The notes under the pieces: generated by a model
Databases searched by the model: none
The model's input: only the letters and a program-made list of their open reading frames with translations
What the model was told of the DNA's origin: nothing
Position numbers and translations under genes: made by a program
Assembly (NCBI GenBank): GCA_036268875.1
Contig: DATATI010000049.1
Span: 62,001 to 126,000, forward strand
Length of the DNA: 64,000 nucleotides
DNA from: Polyangia bacterium
Lineage (GTDB): Bacteria > Myxococcota_A > Polyangia > Fen-1088
Reading direction: 5' to 3'
In this document: piece by piece, positions 2,649 through 8,999 of the stretch
How the letters are laid out: each line of letters begins with the position of its first letter
Numbering within the stretch: position 1 is the stretch's first letter

Positions 2649-3044
2649 CTAGTTGCGGATCAGGATCCGGTTCTGCGGAATCCAGCGCAGCTCGCGCAGG
2701 CGTTTTTCAGTGACGAAATCGCGCAGCAGCCGTTCGTGCTTGCGGGCCATCCCGACAAAGCGCAGGCCGCTGACATGAAAATAATCGCCCAGGCGATCGA
2801 ACCGCGATTCCGCCGACGCCCAGATGATCTCGCCCGTTCCGGGCAGTTCGAACTCAAGCCCCACGATGCGTGGCTGGCGCGCCAGCGGCTCGACAAGCTT
2901 TTGCACGTAAAGGCCGGTGTGACTGACGTTGACCGCCAGGCTGCGCGCCGGATCGTCGTCCACATACTGATTGAGAAACATCTCCACCCGCACCCGAGGA
3001 TCCCGCCGCCGTTCCGTATCGCGCAAAACGCTCAGGTGAGACAT
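2649..3044 (-). CDS. PilZ-domain protein (putative c-di-GMP effector)
   Basis: A protein of about 131 residues made of a single PilZ domain. The RRRDPRVRV segment near the N-terminus fits the RxxxR part and NVSHTGLYV fits the D/N-x-S-x-x-G part of the c-di-GMP-binding signature; further on, GLEFELPG and GLRFVG are the usual beta-strand segments. In Myxococcota such single-domain proteins bind c-di-GMP and act on motility, exopolysaccharide or transcription; the partner here cannot be told. The start is uncertain: ATG at 3044 (MSHLSV) is preferred, but a TTG at 3053 (MSYMSHL) is in frame with AGGA just ahead. Either start touches a perfect dyad at 3049-3077. The gene stands alone, closed by the hairpin at 2568-2612. 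Confidence 0.85.
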   Translation of the reverse strand: MSHLSVLRDTERRRDPRVRVEMFLNQYVDDDPARSLAVNVSHTGLYVQKLVEPLARQPRIVGLEFELPGTGEIIWASAESRFDRLGDYFHVSGLRFVGMARKHERLLRDFVTEKRLRELRWIPQNRILIRN

Positions 3045-3048
3045 GTAG

Positions 3049-3077
3049 GACAAAGTATCCTAAAATCCTACTTTGTC
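3049..3077 (-). promoter_or_regulatory. Perfect 9-bp dyad at the start of the PilZ gene
   Basis: GACAAAGTA at 3049-3057 is repeated inverted as TACTTTGTC at 3069-3077, with an 11-base spacer. In the mRNA the loop would be GGATTTTAGGA, which holds the only Shine-Dalgarno-like AGGA for this gene. On the minus strand the outer arm also supplies a perfect TTGACA (3079-3074), 16 bases from TACTTT, in which case the transcript would start close to the ATG at 3044. So it may be a protein operator over a promoter or an RNA hairpin presenting the ribosome site; the sequence alone does not decide. Confidence 0.45.
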
Positions 3078-3319: not shown

Positions 3320-3547
3320 TCACTTTCGCGATCGCAAGAAGCTTCGCACCGCCTCGCGGACTGACGGTGGAATCTGCGTGGCCAGCGCCTCGCGAGACAC
3401 TTCAGCCGTGCGCCGGTAAGTCTCGAAGAAGCTCACACAGTCCGGACACTGCCCGAGATGCCGTCGGAAAAGTGCTTGCTCATCGTTCGGCAGATCACCC
3501 TCGATGTAGTCAAAGCAGAAATCGATCAGCTGTTGACAGTTAATCAC
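3320..3547 (-). CDS. Zinc-finger anti-sigma factor-like protein (zf-HC2/ZAS)
   Basis: A 75-residue protein with the ZAS/zf-HC2 zinc-binding pattern: an N-terminal CQQLIDFCFDYIEGDL helix, then HLGQCPDC (H-x3-C-x2-C), followed by a helical tail that includes PPSVREAVRSFL. Proteins of this kind bind and hold ECF sigma factors in the cytosol, releasing them on a redox or envelope signal. Usually the partner sigma gene lies directly upstream and overlaps; here the upstream side is occupied by a gene on the opposite strand, so the partner must be elsewhere or the protein acts alone. There is no transmembrane segment. The start is GTG at 3545-3547. A GGAACC element, as in ECF -35 boxes, lies about 60 bases upstream, but no convincing -10 partner was found. 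Confidence 0.8.
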   Translation of the reverse strand: MINCQQLIDFCFDYIEGDLPNDEQALFRRHLGQCPDCVSFFETYRRTAEVSREALATQIPPSVREAVRSFLRSRK

Positions 3548-3736: not shown

Positions 3737-4849
3737 GTGGCTGGCGAACCAGGGCTCCCGGACGGTCGGGCAAACGCGCTGACGTTGCCGCGGGCGCGGG
3801 CGTCGCGGCCGTTTCTGGCTGGCGCCACGCGCTGGATCAAGGGTCATCGGCGCGTCGTGAACGTCGCCCGTTTGGGAGCGATTTGGTTGTCCTTCGATTC
3901 GATCGAGAGCGAGGACGACGATGTCGCGGGGCTGGACGATGACTGCGCCCTGTTCATTCGCCATCAAGGAGAGGCGGCGCAAATCAAGATCGACCGAGCG
4001 CTGGCGGCGGCCGTGGTGAACGCGATCTTGGGAACGGTCACCGACGCGATCGTTGAACGGGAGCTCGGCCGCGGGGAACGTGGTGTGCTGGCCGCGGTGG
4101 TGACGGAAGTCTTGCGCGCTCTCGGCAGTCCGTGGCGTTTGTCGTTGCGGCAAGGTGTGCCGTTGGCCCGAGCAGAAGCGATCAGGCTGATCGTGAACGC
4201 GCGTGTTGAGGCACTGGGGCGCACGGCGCCGATCCGGCTGGAGATCCCGCGACGGTGGAACGAAACGACGGATGCGGCTGCGCACGAACAAGCAGCCACG
4301 TTGGTCACCGTCGCTGGCGTCGAACTGGGCGCCACGAAATTGCCCGCTCGCGAGTGGCTGGCGGTCCAGGCGGGCGACGGCGTAGTTTTTGATGGCTTGC
4401 CCGCGTTGCACGCCGGCGGACAGTGGGCGGTGCGGCTGCGGGTGGGGGCGCACGCGGCGGCCGCGACGCTGGATGCGGACGGCGCCATCCGTTTGCTGGA
4501 CGGATTTCGTGCGCTGCCGATTGCGTCGGGACGCTTTCTGCGAAAGAACGAAGGCTCGATGGACGAAAACAGCAAAGCGGCGGGCAACGCTGTGGTCGAC
4601 CCCACGCTGGTTCTGGCCGCTGCGCCGGTCGAGATCGTTGCCGAGTTGGGACGGCTGGTGGTGCGCGGAGACGAAATCCTGTCCCTGGCGCGCGGGGGCG
4701 TTTTGGCTTTCGCCGGGCCGCGGGCCACAGCGGTTACCTTGCGCGTGGGCGACGAGATCTGGGCGCGCGGCGAGCTGGTCGATGTCGACGGCGACCTGGG
4801 CGTGCGCATCACCCAGGTGACGAACGATCCGACATCCCGCCGCGGCTGA
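3737..4849 (+). CDS. SctQ/FliN-like SpoA-domain protein (type III secretion C-ring family), orphan
   Basis: A 370-residue protein. The C-terminal 70 residues (PVEIVAELGRLVVRGDEILSL... GDEIWARGELVDVDGDLGVRITQV) are a typical SpoA/FliN domain as in SctQ (YscQ, HrcQ). Upstream, FIRHQGEAAQIKIDRALAAA and a GERGVLAAVVTEVL helix fit the SctQ N-terminal half, so the whole architecture is SctQ-like rather than FliN-like. Family members form the cytoplasmic sorting platform or C-ring of type III secretion or flagellar machines. No other secretion or flagellar gene is in the window. The start (GTG 3737) may be too far upstream: the first 50 residues are Arg/Ala-rich without family resemblance. It converges on the next gene with a 16-base gap. 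Confidence 0.75.
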   Translation: MAGEPGLPDGRANALTLPRARASRPFLAGATRWIKGHRRVVNVARLGAIWLSFDSIESEDDDVAGLDDDCALFIRHQGEAAQIKIDRALAAAVVNAILGTVTDAIVERELGRGERGVLAAVVTEVLRALGSPWRLSLRQGVPLARAEAIRLIVNARVEALGRTAPIRLEIPRRWNETTDAAAHEQAATLVTVAGVELGATKLPAREWLAVQAGDGVVFDGLPALHAGGQWAVRLRVGAHAAAATLDADGAIRLLDGFRALPIASGRFLRKNEGSMDENSKAAGNAVVDPTLVLAAAPVEIVAELGRLVVRGDEILSLARGGVLAFAGPRATAVTLRVGDEIWARGELVDVDGDLGVRITQVTNDPTSRRG

Positions 4850-4865: not shown

Positions 4866-6209
4866 CTAGATCTGCCCGCAGAGCTCTTCGATGGCGCTGG
4901 CGGCGGCAGTCCAGCGCGGCGCTTGTTCCAGCAGCGCTTTCACCAGCGGCGACCAGAGATCGGCATCGGCGCGCAAGGCTGCCGCGCGCCGAATGGCGCT
5001 TTCGATCTGGAAGGCGTCCAGCGATCCGTAAAGCAACGCCGAGCCGGTTGCCGAGCGCGGATCGTAGTCAACCAGATTGTCGCGGTTGGCGCCGGCGTCA
5101 ACCGCGATCGGCAACGTGCCGTATCGCTGGGCCAGCGCAGCGGCACGGCCGGTGCGATCGTCGTCATCGGCGAGCAGCAGCGCATCCGCGGCGGCGCGCA
5201 CTTGGCGCTCGGTGGCCTCATCGGATGAGTGCAGGACGGAAATACGGCCGGGGTTTTGGATGGCCAGGAGGTTGGCTCGCTCGGCCATCTCGGCGTCGCC
5301 GCCGGCCGGGATGATGGCCACGACGTCGTAAGTGCTGAGGCGTTCCAGCGCCGACAAAACCACCTCGCCGCCCTTGCCTTGCCGAAGCGGCGCCACTGCC
5401 AGCAGCAGCGTGCGCGGCCCTAGCGCCAGCGAACAGCGACGGGCGACGGCGCGCCGGCATTCGATCTTGCCAGCCAGATTGGCGGGCGAATAGGTCGCAG
5501 GCAAAGCGGGATCGGTGGCTGGATCATTCGGCGGCTCGTCGCTGCCGAAGCGAATGGCCACCAGGGGTTCGTCAGAGGCGCGGGCCGCCAGACCTGGGTT
5601 GCTGCCCAGGGCGCGAGCGGCGCTGGCGCTGGGCGCGAGAATGGCGTTGGCCGACAACGAGCCGAGCGCCACCAGCGATCGCGAGCCGACGTCGTCGTCG
5701 CCACCCAGCAGGGACGTGCCCAAAAGCTGTGCGTCGGCTGGGCTCAGCGGCGCGCCCACTCGGCCACTGGGCAAAACGAACAGGCGCACGGCGGCGGAGG
5801 TCGCTGACAACGCGGCGGCGGCGGTCTCGCCCCAGCCGATGGTGACCTCGGGCGCGATCAGGCCGTCGCTGGCCAGCGACTTTACGGCGCTGCCAAGCAG
5901 GGCTGCTGTCTGGGCGCGGCCCGACGGCTGGGCGCCGATGATCATAAGTTGCGAGTTGCTGAGGACCGCGCGGCCTTCATACAAACTCAGATCCAGGGAT
6001 TGGTCGCCGATAGACGCCGAGATCGTGCGCAGCCGACGGGCCAACCCCGGGACCCGCGCCACCGTCTCGGGCGCGCCGAGCGACAACACCGTGGTCCGAT
6101 GGCCAGCGGCCGCCAGGGCGCGACTGACCCCAGCGGCAGCCAGAGGAGTTTCCCCCTCGACCAAAGGCGCCACCGCGTCGGTGATTATCAGAAAGTCCCG
6201 GGACGGCAC
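4866..6209 (-). CDS. Glycogen/starch synthase-like (GT5-fold) protein with eroded catalytic motifs
   Basis: A 447-residue protein with the layout of a GT5 glycogen synthase: an N-terminal half starting FLIITDAVAPLVEGETPLAA and GHRTTVLSLG, a linker with NLAGKIECRRAVARRCSLALG, then the second Rossmann domain with APLRQGKGGEVVLSALERL and QRYGTLPIAVDAGANRDNLVDYD. These match the family blocks around the K-x-G-G-L ADP-glucose site, the N-K-x-x-L block, S/P-R-L-x-x-Q-K-G and A-L-R-Y-G-T-L-P. The catalytic parts differ: KTGGL is replaced by VEGET, and the E-P-C-G-L-x-Q block reads DDDDRTGRAAALAQ. Known glycogen synthase activity is therefore doubtful; it may be a regulatory or other-donor relative. 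The start is GTG at 6207-6209, two bases after the preceding small gene, so translation is probably coupled. Confidence 0.6.
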   Translation of the reverse strand: MPSRDFLIITDAVAPLVEGETPLAAAGVSRALAAAGHRTTVLSLGAPETVARVPGLARRLRTISASIGDQSLDLSLYEGRAVLSNSQLMIIGAQPSGRAQTAALLGSAVKSLASDGLIAPEVTIGWGETAAAALSATSAAVRLFVLPSGRVGAPLSPADAQLLGTSLLGGDDDVGSRSLVALGSLSANAILAPSASAARALGSNPGLAARASDEPLVAIRFGSDEPPNDPATDPALPATYSPANLAGKIECRRAVARRCSLALGPRTLLLAVAPLRQGKGGEVVLSALERLSTYDVVAIIPAGGDAEMAERANLLAIQNPGRISVLHSSDEATERQVRAAADALLLADDDDRTGRAAALAQRYGTLPIAVDAGANRDNLVDYDPRSATGSALLYGSLDAFQIESAIRRAAALRADADLWSPLVKALLEQAPRWTAAASAIEELCGQI

Positions 6210-6211
6210 TA

Positions 6212-6415
6212 CTACTCAGTCGCGCCGCGCTCGTCCTCTTCGCCGGGGAATTCGTTAACCGACGGGTATTTCATGATCTCTTTGCGGGAGATCTTCCAGG
6301 CTTTCTGGACAATCCAGGAAAGCGAGCGATCCTGACGGGTCGCCTCTTCTTGGATTTCCTTGAGCATCTCTTCCGGGAAATAAAGACTTTGTTTTCTCTT
6401 ATCGGAACCGCCCAT
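6212..6415 (-). CDS. TIGR04563-type ribbon-helix-helix protein
   Basis: A protein of 67 residues starting MGGSDKRKQSLYFPEEMLKE, with the beta strand (KQSLYFP) and two helices (MLKEIQEEATRQDRS, SWIVQKAWKI) of an Arc/MetJ-like ribbon-helix-helix fold. The pattern matches the TIGR04563 family that is frequent in Myxococcota and of unknown target. The ATG at 6415 is chosen over the longer frame to 6484 because GGAGG lies at ideal distance before it and because the family starts there. The TAG stop is two bases from the GTG of the glycogen-synthase-like gene, so the two form a small operon; it may regulate its own operon. Confidence 0.85.
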   Translation of the reverse strand: MGGSDKRKQSLYFPEEMLKEIQEEATRQDRSLSWIVQKAWKISRKEIMKYPSVNEFPGEEDERGATE

Positions 6416-6557
6416 GGGGCCTCCGCGTGTCATTGAACGCGTTTTGAAGTGGGGAACAGTATTCAGGAACGCGCACTCTGTCAAGACTCGGATGGTGCTG
6501 CTCGAGAATCAGCGGCGCGAAATCTCGCCTTGCTTGTTCAATCCTCGCCGAACGAGG

Positions 6558-6586
6558 TTGACGATCGATACTCAGGAAACTATCCT
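6558..6586 (+). promoter_or_regulatory. Sigma-70-type promoter for the DksA-like gene
   Basis: TTGACG at 6558-6563, 17-base spacer, TATCCT at 6581-6586. Expected transcription start is near 6593, ahead of both in-frame ATGs (6602 and 6629) of the DksA-like gene, which supports the shorter protein. This local stretch is richer in A and T than its surroundings. Confidence 0.5.
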
Positions 6587-6628
6587 TGGGGGCTATTTTT
6601 CATGCGCCATAGAGGCGCGGGGACGTTC

Positions 6629-7006
6629 ATGGAAGGAACTGGCCTGAAGAAGAAGGATCTCAAGCGATTTAGCGACACGTTGCTCGCCAAGAAGAAGGAG
6701 ATTCTCAGAAACGCCCAGCGGACCTTGAACGAGGACATGACTCTGGACGCCGACGATCTGCCCGACGAGATGGATCTGGCATCGTCGGAGTACTTGCACT
6801 CTTTCACCTTCCGCCTGCGTGGCCGGGAAAAAGTTTTTCTGCAGAAGATCGATCACGCGCTGGAGAAGATCAAAGAAGGCAGCTTCGGCATCTGCGAGCA
6901 GTGCGGGGAACCTATCTCGATGAAGCGCCTGGAAGCGCGCCTTGAGACCACGCTGTGCATTCGCTGCAAAGAAGACCAAGAGCGGATCGAAAAGGCGTAC
7001 GGCTGA
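6629..7006 (+). CDS. TraR/DksA-family zinc-finger transcription factor
   Basis: A protein of 125 residues starting MEGTGLKKKDLKRFSDTLLA. It has an N-terminal coiled coil, the conserved segment LDADDLPDEMDLASSEY, and a C-terminal C4 zinc finger C-x2-C-x17-C-x2-C (CEQCGEP ... CIRCKED). DksA-family proteins bind in the RNA polymerase secondary channel and mediate the stringent response with ppGpp; the DxxDxA tip of classical DksA is represented here by the Asp-rich DADDLPDEMD segment. The start at 6629 follows the family; longer in-frame starts (6449, 6602) add residues with no family resemblance. A sigma-70-like promoter is at 6558-6586. The gene is transcribed alone. Confidence 0.85.
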   Translation: MEGTGLKKKDLKRFSDTLLAKKKEILRNAQRTLNEDMTLDADDLPDEMDLASSEYLHSFTFRLRGREKVFLQKIDHALEKIKEGSFGICEQCGEPISMKRLEARLETTLCIRCKEDQERIEKAYG

Positions 7007-8474: not shown

Positions 8475-8999
8475 ATGGACGAACTACCGGATGGGATGGA
8501 TGACGTGGAGGGGATGGTCGTCGAGGAAGAGGACGCGCCGCAACCTGAGGTGGCCCGGATCCGCCGCAAGGTGCACTCGGCCGGCCGCGACGGGCGGGTG
8601 CGATCGAAGACCATCGCCCCCAAGCGCCTGACCCGCGATGAGCGGCGAATGTCCGAATTGATGGTGTATCCCGAGGAGGTCGACCGGCCAGCGAGTCGGG
8701 AGGCGTGCAAGTCGATGGCGCGTCCCTGCCCGTTCGTCAGTTGCTCGCATCACTTGTATCTGGACGTCAATCCGGAGACCGGGGCGATCAAATTGAACTT
8801 CCCGCACCTCGAGGTCTGGGAGATGCCGGAGACCTGCTCGCTGGACGTCGCGGATCGCGGCGGCATCACGCTGGAAGAGGTGGGCGCGATCTTGAACCTC
8901 ACCCGTGAACGTATCCGTCAGGTCGAGGTGCGCGGGCTGGCCAAGATCAAAGACCACACCGGTAACGAGCTGGGCATCCCGCCGGAACGCAACCAATAG
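8475..8999 (+). CDS. Sigma-70 region 4-like DNA-binding protein
   Basis: A 174-residue protein, start ATG 8475 with GAGGAG eight bases upstream. The C-terminus, from [19 protein letters not shown] to [18 protein letters not shown], is a sigma factor region 4 helix-turn-helix including the T-R-E-R-I-R-Q-V-E signature used against the -35 box. The middle carries a Cys/His cluster [14 protein letters not shown] preceded by another Cys and followed by ETCSLDV, possibly a metal site. Regions 1-3 are absent, so it cannot be a complete sigma factor; it is more likely an accessory DNA-binding protein. The acidic N-terminus ([10 protein letters not shown]) is unstructured. It follows the MerR-like gene and probably works with it. 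Confidence 0.8.

Follow-up and report, generated by a model that had tools for sequence, protein, structure and literature searches.

The window, the whole 64,000-nucleotide stretch of Polyangia DNA analysed here, carries on its minus strand a gene encoding a putative GT5-derived pseudoenzyme, which we call pGlgA. The ORF at 4866-6209 is genuine: its coordinates are exact and it encodes 447 aa from a GTG start. The gene and its neighbours are listed below.

2649..3053, minus strand: PilZ-domain-like protein, just under the Pfam cut-off; wider neighbourhood
3320..3547, minus strand: zf-HC2 anti-sigma-like protein; wider neighbourhood
3737..4849, plus strand: SctQ/FliN-type C-ring protein of type III secretion, facing pGlgA convergently; found near GlgA or pGlgA in six families
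4866..6209, minus strand: pGlgA, putative GT5-derived pseudoenzyme, from ORF, profile, orthologue and fold evidence
6212..6415, minus strand: TIGR04563 ribbon-helix-helix protein, 67 aa, likely ATG at 6415; its stop lies 2 nt before the pGlgA start
6449..7006, plus strand: DksA-family protein, transcribed away from the ribbon-helix-helix gene; the open frame probably has its true start further in

Full-length relatives of pGlgA (41-62% identity) were found in 16 of the 17 other genomes of the family, in a search of 59 genomes (the window's own plus 58). Counting the window genome, pGlgA is present in 17/18 family genomes; the genome that lacks it (G012) is 74% complete. A scan of genome contigs with a family-specific pattern retrieved 15 relatives, all from MAGs of uncultured bacteria. 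These were titled Myxococcales, Myxococcota, Deltaproteobacteria or Proteobacteria bacterium, and 9 of the 15 had 'fen' isolate names.

The TIGR04563 gene lies directly upstream of pGlgA, on the same strand, in all 17 family genomes (gaps of 1 to about 100 nt), and the two genes would be co-expressed. A SctQ match adjoins pGlgA in the same 17 genomes; the G009 match is weak, and that of G008 is a fragment interrupted by a stop. SctQ is not co-transcribed with pGlgA, since the two genes are convergent. Beyond SctQ, zf-HC2, PilZ-like and TPR genes follow in some genomes. A promoter and terminator scan gave no site on the minus strand and was uninformative.

Across the family the TIGR04563 protein is 97-98% identical to the window copy (L043 matched over 35 residues only) where the neighbouring pGlgA is only 41-62% identical, which marks it as a very strongly constrained small protein. 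No TIGR04563 gene was found by tblastn in the loci of the other families tried, and a literature search returned no paper on it. Elsewhere in the window, positions 8475-8999 encode a 174-aa protein whose sole domain match is sigma-70 region 4; it is conserved in 10/17 loci, several of the loci being too short to reach it.

Fold and active-site residues of pGlgA

The descent of pGlgA from GT5 is beyond chance. TIGR02095 matched it in the NCBIfam search (E 1.4e-26, 93 bits), and E. coli GlgA was recovered by phmmer in a search of solved structures (3e-13). The first-pass annotation had offered to give up its reading if no GT5 profile matched, and TIGR02095 does match. The match is confined to the C-terminal half (residues 212-443) and its 93 bits are far under the curated cut-off of 328 bits, unlike GlgA; curated cut-offs would not name pGlgA a GlgA. 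In the Pfam search, the Glyco_transf_5 catalytic domain gave no match and PF00534 (Glycos_transf_1) was the sole match, at 19.2 bits, under its cut-off of 26.4.

The AlphaFold2 model of pGlgA, built from 35 aligned sequences, had a mean pLDDT of 93 and a pTM of 0.91. Foldseek matched it to the A. tumefaciens glycogen synthase (8.5e-27). The best solved match in VIA-align 2 was E. coli GlgA 3d1j (Z 37.7, 434 residues, rmsd 3.0, 22% identity), and glycogen and starch synthases filled the first 11 rows of this comparison and were also at the top in Foldseek. Rows named as GPCRs appeared among the matches of both searches; these are probably receptors that were fused to Pyrococcus glycogen synthase for crystallisation, and not relatives. 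The model indicates that the entire two-domain GT-B scaffold is retained, including the N-terminal half missed by the profiles, so that the predicted fold of pGlgA is the whole GT-B fold of bacterial GlgA (GT5, TIGR02095).

Active-site positions are numbered after E. coli GlgA (NC_000913): K15, D137, H161, R300, K305 and E377. They are taken here as the catalytic positions, with R300 and K305 as the phosphate-binding pair. The altered sites of the window protein, all on the minus strand, are:

6147..6167, minus strand: PLVEGET, codons 15-21, in place of E. coli P12-LLKTGGL; K15 replaced by E18
5826..5834, minus strand: WGE, codons 126-128, in place of E. coli H136-D137-W138; no variation at W126 or E128 in 17/17
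5769..5771, minus strand: Pro codon 147 at the H161 place; invariant in 17/17
5388..5390, minus strand: Pro codon 274 at the R300 place; Pro in 15/17, Gln in 2/17
5145..5177, minus strand: LLADDDDRTGR, codons 345-355, at E. coli LVPSRFEPCGL; D351 at the E377 place

Two of these replacements had been read from the window sequence by the first-pass annotation, and alignment with E. coli GlgA bears both out. Its change of KTGGL to VEGET corresponds to PLLKTGGL aligned with PLVEGET, where K15 becomes E18, G17 is kept as G19 and G18 becomes E20. Its Asp-rich DDDDRTG segment in place of the E-P-C-G-L-x-Q block corresponds to LVPSRFEPCGL aligned with LLADDDDRTGR, where E377 becomes D351. The GT5 scaffold blocks that it had reported as kept, QRYGTLPIAVDAG and VDYD, are indeed there, aligned with the conserved C-terminal block of GlgA. 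The window protein has further losses beyond that list (D137G, W138E, H161P and R300P).

The losses extend to the 17 family proteins. Lys at the K15 place is lost in all of them (E in 8, D in 6 and S, F and R in one each). The D137 place holds Gly in 16 and Asp in one, the W138 place Glu in 17 and the H161 place Pro in 17. Arg at the R300 place is lost in 17/17, while Lys at the K305 place is kept in 4/17 (R6, K4, A3, D2, S1, T1). The S374 place is Asp and the L381 place Arg throughout; the E377 place is Asp in 15 and Asn in two. Within LLADDDDRTGR, D348 and R355 are invariant (17/17). Thus, unlike GlgA, pGlgA is without K15, W138, H161, R300 and E377 in every family protein and without D137 in 16/17. 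The C-terminal residues Y389, G390, P393, D403 and W462 are shared with bacterial GlgA and kept in 17/17. A conserved active-site Glu and Lys, which had been named in advance as a finding against the pseudoenzyme reading, were looked for and none was found.

The reference set in the same alignment (A3) comprised 15 GlgA proteins with an intact site, E. coli plus 14 from Myxococcota. D137, W138, H161, R300, K305, S374, E377 and L381 were unchanged in 15/15 of them and K15 in 14/15, a count that is flattered since L053 (His at K15) and L088 (Ala at K15) stand outside A3, as do L076, L077, L085 and L087, among others. Three GlgA-like Myxococcota rows with His, Gln or Ala at K15 keep D137, H161, R300, K305 and E377. 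As K15 varies even among GlgA-like proteins that keep the rest of the site, the case for pGlgA rests on the joint loss of residues and not on K15, whose loss taken alone would be weak evidence. The Asp in place of E377 in 15/17 is a mild change on paper, a non-neutral residue, and counts against inactivity.

The residues lost in 17/17 orthologues come jointly from the acceptor and donor sides and the gene is under purifying selection (see below), which upholds the proposal that pGlgA is a pseudoenzyme. On these sequence grounds, pGlgA is very probably a non-catalytic relative of bacterial glycogen synthase. The same annotation had proposed a changed donor as an alternative; here pGlgA would be an active glycosyltransferase with another donor or mechanism, in which D351, D348 and R355 replace the GT5 residues. 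The GT-B fold kept in the model, the invariant D348 and R355 and the acidic residue at the E377 place in 15/17 fit such an enzyme, but a new donor is not expected to remove phosphate-binding residues. R300 is lost in 17/17 and K305 kept in only 4/17, the catalytic-block Glu is gone, and Pro at H161, Glu at W138 (both 17/17) and Gly at D137 (16/17) go with these losses. The R300 loss above all makes a changed donor unlikely, and we give it very little credence. With the phosphate-binding Arg and the acceptor-side residues lost, we prefer a partner role for pGlgA to a changed donor.

Selection on pGlgA and true GlgA copies in the same genomes

The pGlgA reading frame is open in 17/17 genomes, with 57 invariant columns in the alignment. 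In the 16 closest pairs, dN/dS was 0.084-0.151 (Nei-Gojobori). We compared pGlgA with the true GlgA of the same genomes in 28 pairs drawn from 8 genomes. In the 7 closest pairs, dN/dS was 0.10-0.14 for pGlgA vs. 0.07-0.16 for true GlgA. In the 21 wider pairs it was 0.22-0.45 vs. 0.14-0.28, values that are poorly measured as dS was mostly above 1. The higher values in the wider pairs indicate looser constraint on pGlgA; it is constrained by purifying selection, though less than the enzyme. A decaying pseudogene would account for pGlgA being more diverged than the true GlgA of the same genomes, but the 17 open copies, the dN/dS of 0.08-0.15 in close pairs and the 57 invariant columns rule it out, leaving it next to no probability. 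Since active-site residues were lost and the gene is nevertheless kept under selection, pGlgA probably does a new, non-enzymatic job.

Among 88 columns conserved in at least 14/15 GlgA proteins, only 21 were kept in at least 15/17 family proteins. Eight columns conserved in at least 13/15 GlgA had switched to another residue fixed in 17/17 (H136W, W138E, H161P, V211P, K277R, H361R, S374D and L381R). Five of these eight lie at most 4 residues from a catalytic position (Fisher p 0.013; the pattern had been noticed before this test was picked, and p shifts with the cuts, being 0.013, 0.011, 0.060 and 0.050 in the four tried). From these columns, the former active site looks re-fixed and not drifting, and the re-fixed positions fit the binding of a ligand or partner. 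Six of the eight are taken to be at or near the lining of the GlgA cleft, a placement from E. coli numbering and not from coordinates.

The first-pass annotation had put forward a carbohydrate sensor as a possible role. Such a cleft would also suit a small-molecule sensor, in which the two-domain clamshell would bind a sugar or nucleotide by closing and pass the signal to the ribbon-helix-helix DNA-binding protein, whose gene lies 2 nt upstream. The eight re-fixed positions and the constant, same-strand adjacency of this gene (17/17, protein 97-98% identical) speak for a sensor. However, adjacency is no proof of interaction, and the negative tblastn result in the loci of other families counts against it. 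We consider a sensor rather unlikely, if worth keeping in mind.

True GlgA genes above the TIGR02095 cut-off were present elsewhere in the genome in 17/17 family genomes that carry pGlgA. The window genome has two, one of which (L053) lies with glgC, a branching enzyme gene and a phosphorylase gene; the glycogen pathway can therefore run without pGlgA. L053 (8431-10512, contig C1 of the window genome) encodes a true GlgA of 693 aa that is long because of a C-terminal extension and in which His replaces K15.

SctQ-linked GlgA in other families

The SctQ protein was searched for in 289 genomes of the class, a sample from a larger group; it matched 55/289 genomes, 39 of them outside the family. 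The SctQ stretches of all 39 were examined, some being cut by contig ends. A GlgA-like gene lay near SctQ in 7/39 (G018, G026, G034, G042, G058, G103 at 0.7 kb and G087 at about 3 kb) and was absent from the stretch in 32/39, some of these cut by contig ends; the linkage of SctQ and GlgA is therefore not general. G025 and G050 were added as matches of the pGlgA search whose stretches showed SctQ. In G050, SctQ and the GlgA-like gene share a strand and are separated by about 1 kb. PilZ and TPR genes accompany SctQ in G026, G042, G058, G087, G034, G025 and G050, and a PilZ gene does so in G103. The relatives compared are those in the stretches fetched and not a full census; in the comparison table, L081 was left out as a duplicate of L050, and one spurious short ORF (L084_29) was included.

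The linked GlgA is intact in two families, f2 (G018) and f20 (G058, G087 and G103), and degenerate in three, f10 (G026, G042 and G050), f13 (G034) and f9 (G025). Among the genomes examined, the degenerate form was present in 3/3 of f10, 1/1 of f13 and 1/2 of f9. G050 was found after A3, so it is absent from the A3 counts, and its degenerate status was read by eye from its sequence. G092, also of f20, has an intact GlgA on a contig other than that of its SctQ.

The degenerate linked proteins resemble pGlgA in having SctQ, PilZ and TPR genes as neighbours (G026, G042, G050, G034 and G025). In A3, the R300 place is Pro in all four of those aligned, and the D137 place is Gly in the 3/3 with a residue there. 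Unlike pGlgA, the four aligned proteins keep W138, and they score above it on TIGR02095 (308 bits in G026, 267 in G034, 264 in G042 and 160 in G025).

True GlgA genes are present elsewhere than the degenerate linked gene in G026, G042 and G034. The four genomes whose linked GlgA is intact have no other gene above the TIGR02095 cut-off. No GlgA above the cut-off was found in G025, whose linked copy is degenerate, so a second GlgA copy is not always present; this search did not include G050.

The constant SctQ neighbour raises a further explanation, that pGlgA belongs to, or regulates, a dispersed type III secretion-like machine. SctQ adjoins pGlgA in 17/17, and five other families have it close to an intact or degenerate GlgA. 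An FHIPEP match (SctV or FlhA) was found in 17/18 family genomes, and a SctV-type protein of the window genome scores slightly under the cut-off of its model. Against this, SctQ is convergent with pGlgA in the family, two families hold an intact GlgA beside the same SctQ neighbour, and most SctQ matches outside the family (the 32/39 above) have no GlgA-like gene in the stretch fetched, some being cut by contig ends. A secretion role is improbable on balance, and we prefer that of a regulator or scaffold, set out in the next section. The SctV-type gene of the window genome (L158, 7376-9310, contig C83) is on another contig than the window's SctQ, and its position apart from SctQ suggests a dispersed type III secretion-like system.

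Proposed role and origin of pGlgA

The explanation that we favour as a whole, and hold to be likely, is that of a GT5 pseudoenzyme that may have arisen in place and would serve as a regulator or scaffold. A glycogen synthase linked to SctQ would have been altered in place, released from its catalytic duty where the genome has another, true GlgA. Its rebuilt cleft (W126, E128, P147, R252, D348 and R355) may then hold a partner or small ligand without glucose transfer. Candidates for the partner are the true GlgA proteins, SctQ and the ribbon-helix-helix protein. Taken by itself, a cytoplasmic regulator or scaffold is a tentative assignment.

Pseudoenzymes are a familiar class among kinases and far less so among glycosyltransferases. 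No report of a bacterial GT5 pseudoenzyme appeared among the open-licence papers listed, which is weak evidence of absence. Plant STARCH SYNTHASE 5 (SS5) is described as a starch synthase of noncanonical type and without enzymatic activity, and starch granules are fewer in its mutants (PMC10801857). From its modelled fold and lost residues, pGlgA may likewise be a GT5-fold protein without activity. In contrast to the bacterial pGlgA, SS5 is a eukaryotic protein; it binds MRC and has its role in the initiation of starch granules (PMC10801857). It is the nearest functional precedent for pGlgA, likened by description and not by comparison of residues. With this precedent, pGlgA would be an enzyme fold turned pseudoenzyme, a known kind of change.

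A more specific form of the explanation is that pGlgA is an independent bacterial counterpart of the plant protein, a linked GlgA turned in place into a protein that uses its rebuilt, re-fixed cleft to regulate either true GlgA or a DNA-binding ribbon-helix-helix partner, and that several Myxococcota families have the loss in common. This form is speculative and we think it unlikely to hold in every part. Related families have either an intact or an inactivated form next to the same neighbour genes, so the change from storage enzyme to non-catalytic protein can be tested stepwise.

Descent in place of pGlgA from a SctQ-linked glycogen synthase that is still intact in other Myxococcota families is suggested by these shared neighbours. 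The shared states at two sites, Pro for R300 (15/17 in the family and 4/4 of the other degenerate proteins) and Gly for D137 (16/17 and 3/3), favour a common degenerate ancestor, and convergence is also possible. In a 42-row tree, the degenerate SctQ-linked proteins and the G021 protein fell outside an intact clade (support 92/90). The AU test did not reject the degenerate linked rows as one group (p 0.49, with long branches). In the trees, the intact linked GlgA proteins group with intact GlgA from unlinked loci, apart from the degenerate proteins. AU tests rejected neither descent from the linked lineage (p 0.14 and 0.28) nor descent from unlinked copies (p 0.30); nine of the 17 family rows and L083, L076 and L085 were left out of this source-copy tree.

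The GlgA-like protein of f14 (G036) formed a very long branch within the intact clade, and it is possible that it represents a second, independent loss. The two f14 genomes, G036 and G044, are near-complete; no SctQ match was found in the stretch fetched, and no GlgA above the TIGR02095 cut-off. Their GlgA-like genes (L076, 9206-10777, and L179, 7796-9355) have catalytic motifs that are not intact, and L076 carries VPERVAPTNNLQM at the place of the EPCGL block. A partly degenerate GlgA-like protein is encoded in G021 of f5 (L085, 4676-6094); it keeps E377, H161 and D137 and has lost R300 and K305.
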